34,036 nucleotides of DNA from [Clostridium] clostridioforme AGR2157 (GTDB taxonomy: Bacteria; Bacillota; Clostridia; Lachnospirales; Lachnospiraceae): assembly GCF_000424325.1 (NCBI RefSeq), contig NZ_AUJR01000050.1:1-34036 (forward strand), read 5' to 3'. Shown here one piece after another: positions 25,605 to 27,517 of this stretch. The position numbers and the translations under genes are program-made. The notes under the pieces were generated by a model. The model was not told the origin of the DNA. It did no database searches and saw nothing but the letters and a program-made list of their open reading frames with translations. The stretch's first letter is position 1. Each line of letters starts with the position of its first letter.

Positions 25605-25632
25605 TTGACATAGCATGTATATGCGCTATAAT
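25605..25632 (+). promoter_or_regulatory. Promoter of the aldolase gene
   Basis: TTGACA (25605-25610), 16 bases, TATAAT (25627-25632): both hexamers are consensus. The transcript would start about 60 bases before the aldolase ATG. Confidence 0.8.
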
Positions 25633-25698
25633 ACACTTAGAGATAAAAAGGAAACGGGCAGGGGAGCCTGTCCCACACATTTTAGGAGGGTATTTACT

Positions 25699-26352
25699 AT
25701 GAAATTTTTTGTGGACACAGCGAATGTTGAGGATATCAAAAAAGCCAATGATATGGGTGTCATCTGCGGCGTTACCACCAATCCATCCCTGATTGCAAAA
25801 GAGGGAAGAAACTTTGCCGAAGTCATTAAGGAAATCACCGACATCGTGGACGGACCTATCAGCGGCGAGGTTAAGGCTACCACCGTTGACGCAGAGGGCA
25901 TGATTAAGGAAGGCCGCGAGATTGCAGCCATCCATCCCAACATGGTAGTTAAGATTCCTATGACAATAGAAGGCTTAAAGGCTGTCAAGGTGCTTCACGC
26001 AGAGGGCATCAAGACCAACGTTACCCTGGTATTCACATCCGCACAGGCTCTCTTAGCCGCACGGGCAGGCGCGTCCTACGTATCCCCATTCCTTGGACGT
26101 CTGGATGACATCTCCATGCCGGGTATCGACCTGATTTACGACATCACCGAGATTTTCCAGATGCACAACATTGAAACCGAAATCATTGCCGCCAGCGTGC
26201 GCAACCCGATTCACGTAATCGACTGCGCCAAGGCCGGTGCCGACATTGCAACTGTTCCCTACAAGGTACTGGAGCAGATGACAAAGCATCCTCTGACCGA
26301 CCAGGGCATTGCCAAATTCCAGGCTGATTATAAGGCTGTGTTTGGGGATTAA
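25699..26352 (+). CDS. fsa: Fructose-6-phosphate aldolase / transaldolase-like protein
   Basis: This 217-aa class I aldolase of the small transaldolase (TalC/FSA) subfamily begins [17 protein letters not shown]. It has the family motif [13 protein letters not shown] and the Schiff-base lysine Lys85 in MVVKIPMT. Small members either cleave fructose 6-phosphate or act as transaldolases in the pentose phosphate pathway; sequence alone does not decide. The ATG at 25699 is chosen because AGGAGGG lies 9 bases before it, although the frame stays open upstream. The gene has its own consensus promoter, suggesting high expression. A large fold-back element begins seven bases after its stop. Confidence 0.92.
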
Positions 26353-26358
26353 GGGTAG

Positions 26359-26672
26359 ATGTGATGTAAAGGTGCAGGGGGGGAGGTGCATCCGTCCGTG
26401 AGTGAAATGGGGGCGGGTGAGTCGGACGCGGGCTGCGGAGCGGGAATCACTAAGGCCCCGTGAAACGGCTTTAAACAAGATTCAGGCGACCCAACTCGCG
26501 CTTAGGTGTTACCTGGAATCCAGGTACTGAGCTCAGACAAGGGTACGCCTGAATCTTAAAGCCGCTTCCCACGGCCTAAGTGATACCAACGCTCCTGTAG
26601 ATGCATCCGCCTCCCCCGCCCCCATTTCACTCACCCGCAACGTATTACCGCGTCTGCATCGTTTATATCACA
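26359..26672. repeat. 314-bp fold-back (long inverted repeat) element
   Basis: Two arms of about 130 bp are imperfect complements. Paired blocks from outside to inside: 26359-26377 with 26653-26672; 26398-26417 with 26615-26634 (20 bp, perfect); 26423-26429 with 26603-26609; 26437-26442 with 26590-26595; 26446-26462 with 26570-26584 (one mismatch, two bulged bases); 26466-26488 with 26546-26564 (four bulged bases). The central loop carries its own hairpin TACCTGG-AAT-CCAGGTA (26510-26526) and the palindrome CTGAGCTCAG (26527-26536). It codes for nothing recognisable. It may be a non-autonomous mobile element, a structured RNA or a bidirectional transcription barrier between the convergent aldolase and DeoR genes. 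Confidence 0.8.
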
Positions 26673-26696
26673 TATCTAATAAAGAAAAATGGCATG

Positions 26697-26812
26697 CCGG
26701 GATTCTGGCGCCTTAGTCTCTCCCACTGCGGAAACGGTCACCTCCCGCCCTGCGTTCCCGGCTCTCACGGACGCGGCTCCCTACCCGCGTCCGCGTATTT
26801 TCCCTCACATCC
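26697..26812. repeat. Possible degenerate third copy of the fold-back arm, with hairpin
   Basis: This C-rich stretch follows the order of the right arm in direct orientation (GCC-TTAGT, CACCTCCCGCC, CTCAC, TACCCGCGTC, TCACAT) over about 110 bases. It also contains a 9-bp hairpin, CGGACGCGG (26768-26776) with CCGCGTCCG (26785-26793). Part of the likeness may be base composition, so the copy call is tentative. It ends at the DeoR stop codon. Confidence 0.35.
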
Positions 26813-27517
26813 TTACCTATTATCTTCCTCCTCTGTAATCAAAACCGCCTCACCCAAATCAAACACCTTGGAAAACGCATACTTATTCTTTTTAGATGTA
26901 TCCATCAGCACATAGACCACCTTGGAATGGTCTTTTACAATCACCTTTTTCCTGGCCTCTCTGTCATCGTAGGTGTAGATGCCTCCGTCCGGAATATAAC
27001 CGTTGGCGCCAATGAACGCCTTATCAAAATACATGTCGGATATCATCTTTTCCGTCAGGGCGCCCAGTACGGATTCCAAATCATCCCTCACCTCTCCCCC
27101 CAGCAGGATACACTTTGCGTTCTTGATGGGCAGATTGTCCAGCAGTTCCGTGCTGCTGGAGACAATGGTGATTCGCTTTCCCTGGAGATATTTGAGCATC
27201 CCTACCGTGGTAGTGCCTGAATCCACGTAAACGCAGTCTCCGTCCTCCACCAGCGCAGCCGCCTTCCTGGCTATGATCTCCTTCTCCTCGCTGTGAATCA
27301 GCTTTTTCTTTACCACAGGCTCGTCGAAATCCTCCGCCTTATACTTAACCGCGCCTCCGCGCATGACGATGACACTGCCTTCCTGTTCCAGAGCAGCAAC
27401 ATCCCTGCGCACAGTGGACAGGGAAATGTTTAATTCCGCTGCCAGGTCTTTTATATAAGAGATATCCCTCTTTTTAATACTCTTCAGTATCTCTTCTTTT
27501 CTCAACTCAGGAACCAT
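26813..27517 (-). CDS. DeoR-family transcriptional regulator (second sugar operon)
   Basis: This 234-aa regulator has an N-terminal HTH (YIKDLAAELNISLSTVRRDVAAL, residues 20-42) and a DeoR sensor domain with VYVDSGTTTVGML and CILLGGEV. It lies last in the leftward sugar operon but has its own promoter (27548-27577). The TGTCA/TTTCA repeat upstream of that promoter shares a 14-base core with the operon promoter region at 33393-33409, so it probably controls both itself and the operon. The effector is likely the phosphosugar made by the kinase next to it; that is inference. Confidence 0.9.
   Translation of the reverse strand: MVPELRKEEILKSIKKRDISYIKDLAAELNISLSTVRRDVAALEQEGSVIVMRGGAVKYKAEDFDEPVVKKKLIHSEEKEIIARKAAALVEDGDCVYVDSGTTTVGMLKYLQGKRITIVSSSTELLDNLPIKNAKCILLGGEVRDDLESVLGALTEKMISDMYFDKAFIGANGYIPDGGIYTYDDREARKKVIVKDHSKVVYVLMDTSKKNKYAFSKVFDLGEAVLITEEEDNR

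Follow-up and report, generated by a model that had tools for sequence, protein, structure and literature searches.

What kind of element is the long fold-back that lies between two convergent genes in the window, i.e., the whole analysed stretch of 34,036 nucleotides from [Clostridium] clostridioforme AGR2157? The upstream gene, of the transaldolase/fructose-6-phosphate aldolase family, is on the + strand (25615..26352; PF00923, E 6e-63), and the downstream gene, a DeoR-family regulator gene, is on the - strand (26813..27517; PF00455, E 8e-39). The convergent flanks named in the original prediction were recovered, as was its spacing, 26359 being seven bases past the aldolase stop at 26352. 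The self-pairing of a single strand was assigned to an intergenic quasi-palindrome of 312 nt (26361-26672). Its 5' arm (26361..26492, +) and 3' arm (26540..26672, +) were complementary at 103 of 123 aligned positions, with an alignment score of 55.5 against a mean of -3.4 and a maximum of 11.5 in 1000 single-base shuffles of one arm. The exact 20-bp block was also found, i.e., 26398-26417 is the perfect reverse complement of 26615-26634. RNA folding, which had been proposed as a check, gave -188.1 kcal/mol for 26340-26700 compared with -120.4 +/- 5.8 in 100 shuffles (z -11.6), none of which was as good. The DNA fold of 26353-26690 reached z -12.6 on the + strand and -12.3 on the - strand, and 0/100 shuffles were as good on each strand. 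The long fold-back is real, as both the arm complementarity and the RNA fold lie far outside the shuffles.

The full fold-back copy, element A (26353..26690, +), was recognized by BLAST to its own and related genomes and by a covariance-model match. Its + strand is the strand reading the AACTCGC...TCAGACA tip. The conserved apex, AACTCGCG...GCTCAGACA (26493..26539, +), is enlarged here to 47 nt by a small inner hairpin, TACCTGGAATCCAGGTA (26510-26526), which agrees with the central hairpin predicted before. A conserved internal loop was assigned by alignment to GGCTTTAAACAAG on the 5' side (26467..26479, +) and CTTAAAGCC on the 3' side (26555..26563, +). In relatives, these two sides read GGCTAAA..ACAAG and CTTAACGCC, and in the genus alignment this lower loop and the apex are the constant unpaired motifs. 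In Rfam, nothing scored above the thresholds, and the sole match was at chance level (12.8 bits, E 4.3, gathering score 37).

A second feature, missed by the original prediction, begins after a spacer of 32 bases. This element B (26705..26797, -; BLAST) is a truncated partner, inverted with respect to A, of which only the outer (5') arm is left; the window lacks the remainder of B and most of the spacer between A and B. B was matched by BLAST in its own genome, in genomes G004, G012, and G015, and weakly in G014. Longer A(+)...B(-) composites, up to about 800 bp, were found at several loci in G000, G004, G012, and G015. The composites of the window's genus are in various states of deletion, and the window holds A with one arm of B, the outer one. 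A small hairpin (26768..26793, +) is located at the outer end of B and is terminator-like on the + strand with the tail CGTATTTTCC. This weak site is the one terminator-like stem in B, against 0.5 +/- 0.6 in shuffles, i.e., not above chance. At another locus, L022 (contig C8 of G012, roughly 590-750), a separate inverted-repeat insert, GGGCGTGTTTGAAAATT ... AATTTTCAAACACGCCC, breaks the outer arm of a B element.

The arm search suggested earlier revealed that copies are dispersed over this genome and others of the genus, and the element is not single-copy. BLAST of its own genome gave, besides the window, several partial copies and, on contig C26, an inverted doublet. Of 41 genomes, 6 contained BLAST copies. 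A covariance model, built from 22 core sequences, matched 8 of 17 genomes of the genus and, with stricter filters, 9 of 397 genomes of the family, the own genome being included in each of these counts. The model matched A with E 6.3e-32 over 26448-26586, the window copy itself being among the model sequences. Among the matches listed, G010 had nine and G007 had 23, some of the latter being one place on both strands. The paired stretch in family copies is 86-331 nt long. In loci L106-L113 of G010, the inner stems are very similar, and the outer arms differ yet remain complementary.

In divergent copies, the apex is shortened to a compact tip, AAACTCGCTNCGCTCARACAG. This tip was found in at least 119 stretches of several phyla by scanning a named genome collection. 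The names include Lachnospiraceae, Peptococcaceae, Selenomonas, Thermotoga, Nitrospirae, Deltaproteobacteria, and a candidate-phylum bacterium, and also Bacteroides, Parabacteroides, Flavobacteria, Flammeovirga, Ralstonia, Variovorax, and Polaromonas. In a strict hairpin test of 119 tips, each with 40-nt flanks, 60 tips had 10 or more pairs among the 14 positions closest to them, compared with 1.4% with shuffled partners (mean paired positions 9.7 against 5.9). The arms beside the tips are unrelated, with 98 distinct 12-mers among the 119 tips. In 16 genomes, which were chosen for having the tip, 359 tip matches (up to two mismatches; 1-91 per genome) were counted, compared with 31 when the pattern was reversed. 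In the genus of Ralstonia sp. A12, one locus query gave 16-37 matches in 16 of 16 genomes; among the matches listed, these are mostly to its repeat, at 85-95% identity. In Bacteroides ihuae (L288-L290, contig C2, 303-382 kb), 12 tip matches with up to two mismatches lie within about 80 kb, several of them nearly identical. The putative membership of the window copy in this family of several phyla is supported by a looser apex pattern together with Lachnospiraceae intermediates, not by a single alignment. Literature searching for the apex and flank sequence returned no paper that, by its title, describes such an element.

The tips share an architecture beyond the apex. In 125 non-redundant tips, a GCTA motif peaks at 12-13 and 33-34 nt before the tip, and a TTAACGC-like motif peaks at 10-11 and 34-36 nt after it. 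These preferred distances suggest two internal loops about 21 bp apart. The loop motif was at the expected places in 23 of 114 non-redundant exact tips, and in 5 and 0 of the shifted controls. Tips less than 1 kb apart formed 51 pairs, i.e., 39 +- with the 3' ends facing, four ++, seven --, and one -+. However, 30 of the 39 facing doublets are Ralstonia loci, which were fetched for their repeats and are partly orthologous, whereas the 20 close pairs outside Ralstonia comprise nine +-, ten tandem, and one -+. The inverted doublets are mainly a Ralstonia habit in the examined set. In sum, the copies form a repeat family with a conserved apex and loops, arms that are varied yet largely complementary, inverted doublets, and a mostly intergenic position.

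An RNA or transcript-end role is the main rival explanation of such a family. The fold-back would be a long hairpin of the 3' UTR that terminates or stabilises transcripts, bidirectionally between convergent genes, and that spread by recombination rather than transposition. The locus fits this: the paired part starts 9 bases after the stop codon in a convergent gap, no other terminator is above chance, and in G004 this gap holds a terminator-like stem followed by a T-run. A itself has no G+C-rich stem followed by a T-run, i.e., no intrinsic terminator, and the predicted absence of a T-run after the element was confirmed. The covariation check also favoured the role in part, since at least one two-sided stem change with pairing kept was seen in 16 of 27 predicted core pairs. 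If the DNA reading given below is right, such pairing in the intergenic DNA of bacteria, however strong, would be no proof of an RNA function. In three ortholog pairs of the genus, one of which was inferred from contig ends only, the paired sites had 21 single pair-breaking substitutions and 0 double changes, which stands against the role. A further 12 pairs in that identity bin, some of which may be orthologs, had 37 double (and three double without pairing) and 56 single changes. The idea that double changes occur only between copies at different places was rejected, because Ralstonia orthologs show many, apparently by block replacement.

The mismatches in the arms bear on the same question. 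The arm analysis kept 111 of 180 hairpins (score of 15 or more), in which 7904 of 9307 aligned positions were Watson-Crick pairs. If a + strand transcript were under selection, G.U should exceed A.C, but the counts show the opposite. On the + strand of the 111 hairpins, 201 G.T and 273 A.C were found, with conserved loop and mismatch positions included in the counts. Isolated mismatches gave 33 G.T against 77 A.C, and 54 Ralstonia copies gave 25 against 41. None of these three sets has an excess of RNA-type wobble on the tip strand. The A.C excess means that wobble pairs are commoner on the opposite strand, and an RNA from that strand, where G.T exceeds A.C, may be compatible with the counts.

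The neighbours of the 111 hairpins were oriented ++ in 28, -- in 18, -+ in 17, and +- in 17 cases, with 31 ambiguous, i.e., without clear bias. By a codon-based gene caller, 19 Ralstonia doublets lay in 13 codirectional, five convergent, and one divergent gap, against 16, one, and three of 20 Ralstonia background gaps; the single divergent gap agrees with the RNA role, though the background has just 3/20. A convergent gap was found for 5 of 12 resolved doublets and for 23 of 123 background gaps, while four doublets were unresolved and 24 were too short to judge. A preference for convergent genes was rejected as weak (5/19 against 1/20 in Ralstonia, some loci being orthologous). REPs lean to codirectional and convergent gaps as described (PMC3733652); for the present element the numbers are too small, and such a lean is not claimed. 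The predicted structured RNA keeps the two-sided pairing changes in its favour and is weakened by the lack of a G.U excess, an Rfam match, and a clear gene orientation, and we consider the RNA role unlikely, although it is the strongest of the rivals.

A folded DNA strand was considered next to the RNA. On the opposite strand, the compact apex reads GCGNAGC, of which the N position on the + strand is T in 60, G in 33, A in 25, and C in 9 of 127 cases. In the literature, GCGNAGC is described as a GNA-loop DNA mini-hairpin of extraordinary stability in which N can be any base (PMC4686876). The enlarged window apex is without this heptamer. By ViennaRNA with DNA parameters, the 22-nt apex had no stable fold on either strand, and the mini-hairpin was not reproduced. 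The apex and the strand of the wobble pairs point to the folded bottom DNA strand as the form that would be recognized.

Mobility was suggested by the transaldolase locus, compared on the 3' sides of genes on the + strand of their contigs. The element is present in G000 and G012 and internally deleted in G015, whereas G004, with a protein 98% identical, has the terminator-like stem in place of the element. In Alkalibaculum, two copies whose paired parts are 98% identical lie inside hairpin-bearing units of about 350 bp (L183:4240-4600 and L210:1255-1615). These have GGNNATCGCATGAAAA-type terminal inverted repeats and target duplications, i.e., 8 bp (TCCAACTA) in one and 8 or 9 bp (GTTTCCCTT) in the other. 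Such units are what would be expected of an ordinary MITE, i.e., an IS that has lost its interior but kept short terminal inverted repeats, is mobilised by a DDE transposase, and carries the hairpin as cargo. The terminal repeats lie outside the hairpin, which may be a passenger in these units. The right-hand repeat was absent within 230 bases in seven of nine Alkalibaculum copies examined, and at the window copy, inspected by eye, no target duplication, clean empty site, or terminal repeat was seen; the terminal-repeat search covered the Alkalibaculum copies and the window copy. We consider an ordinary MITE improbable. Of the three options first proposed, i.e., a miniature fold-back transposon, a structured RNA, or a barrier between convergent transcripts, the first is the best supported, by the dispersed copies, the presence and absence at one locus, and the two Alkalibaculum units. 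A barrier would suit the location in the window, but 13 of 19 Ralstonia doublets are in codirectional gaps. A simple two-arm transposon does not fit, as the copies are often inverted doublets and the arm sequence varies while the fold and tip are kept. The target duplications named as a check in the original prediction were seen in the two Alkalibaculum units and not at the window copy.

Candidate enzymes for moving the hairpin were searched in the copy-bearing genomes. A RAYT or other Y1 transposase was rejected, since PF01797 was unmatched in 6 of the 18 genomes that bear hairpins (70 tips in one of these six), and no tip lay within about 1.5 kb at any of the 30 Y1 loci that were fetched. 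G010, of the window's genus, has its nine listed element matches and no Y1 match. Among the loci examined, no apex enclosed a gene, as it would in an autonomous copy. Reverse transcriptase was rejected too, with RVT_1 unmatched in 6 of 18 copy-bearing genomes, three Ralstonia among them. This counts, together with the lack of G.U excess, against a retro-element, whose transcript would be copied back to DNA. Slippage of the copying enzyme would explain the perfect tandem repeats, almost always with a 6-7-bp unit, that were found on the 3' side of 17 of 191 islands, on the 5' side of two, and in one of 1301 control windows. Many of these islands are from Ralstonia and Alkalibaculum. We regard a retro-element as very improbable. 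In L330, L333, L344, L349, L352, L293, and others, the 6-7-bp repeats begin roughly 75-185 bases past the tip, and the unit varies by locus.

Among known systems, REPs and REPINs are the closest in behaviour. They are described as dispersed extragenic palindromes of many phyla that form inverted doublets, REPINs being predicted to fold in single-stranded DNA or mRNA and REPs lying mostly between codirectional or convergent genes (PMC3116915, PMC3733652). The present element is likewise a dispersed extragenic palindromic repeat, and it forms inverted doublets (39 +- against one -+ of 51), with the A/B composites in the window's genus. REPs are, however, 20-40 bp long with a GTAG or CGTC tag, and the GTAG types are linked to RAYTs, according to the same sources (PMC3116915, PMC3733652). 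Here the pairing covers 86-331 nt and the constant part is the apex. Near its foot the window copy A has CCGTCCGTGAG, which Ralstonia and Bacteroides copies are without, as judged by eye. With a far longer unit, no constant GTAG or CGTC foot, and no RAYT that can be linked to it (six of 18 genomes without Y1, no tip at 30 Y1 loci), the element behaves like a REP or REPIN and is not a member of the class as defined.

Other systems share single features. The TIRs of TIRYTs are described as long, partly self-complementary inverted repeats that flank a tyrosine transposase and sometimes form repeat families or dimers (PMC3733652, PMC6006769), and for the Y1 subclasses 2.1 and 2.3 the cited work reports that no REP-like sequence was found (PMC6006769). 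The present element is alike in its long self-complementary repeats, but its apex was at none of the 30 Y1 loci. The MITEs QMITE2 and Chunjie, as described, are also below 500 bp, intergenic, and strongly hairpin-forming by prediction, with many truncated copies (PMC10969869). MITEs are defined there by short terminal repeats and target duplications (PMC10969869), whereas only the two Alkalibaculum units have these here and the constant part is the apex. The scattering of the copies, singly, in tandem, or in doublets, distinguishes the present element from one further system. Integron attC sites would be comparable as imperfect hairpins that are read in single-stranded, folded form, keep certain unpaired bases constant, and vary in their arms; they flank cassettes beside an integrase.

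It is reasonable to consider the element a dispersed extragenic fold-back of REP/REPIN-like kind, recognized in its folded DNA form and mobilised by a putative trans-acting enzyme; the window carries A and a truncated inverted B of this element. We give this reading a probability slightly above one half (about 55%). The working form would be a folded single strand, i.e., a DNA hairpin exposed in replication or by cruciform extrusion. The apex and loops, not the arm sequence, would be recognized, and a trans-acting enzyme would copy or move the hairpin, after which the inserted copy would decay. In the window, A would have come to lie at the place that is taken in a close relative by an ordinary terminator-like stem. 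A wider claim is more tentative and rather doubtful, i.e., that the copies of several phyla make up a new superfamily. It would be marked by folded-ssDNA recognition, the GCGNAGC apex, loops spaced by about two turns of the helix, complementary arms of freely varying sequence, doublets with facing 3' ends, 6-7-bp repeats added on the 3' side, and a mover other than a Y1 transposase or a reverse transcriptase. If true, a repeat family with one apex, unnamed and without a known mover, is scattered in the intergenic DNA of unrelated bacteria. This would widen the REP/REPIN class and point to an enzyme that reads DNA folds, not sequence, and the shared signature could be searched for finding it.

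A phage or plasmid origin was also considered and rejected, as the window element had no BLAST match in phages or plasmids. The Ralstonia query, searched in near mode, had no match in plasmids. The exact apex was found in two viral-contig stretches, and a Parabacteroides query matched three Parabacteroides plasmid records. In Flammeovirga (G438, loci L387 and L390), strong hairpin windows without this apex flank a Y1 transposase gene, and this arrangement looks like an ordinary REP-transposase unit.
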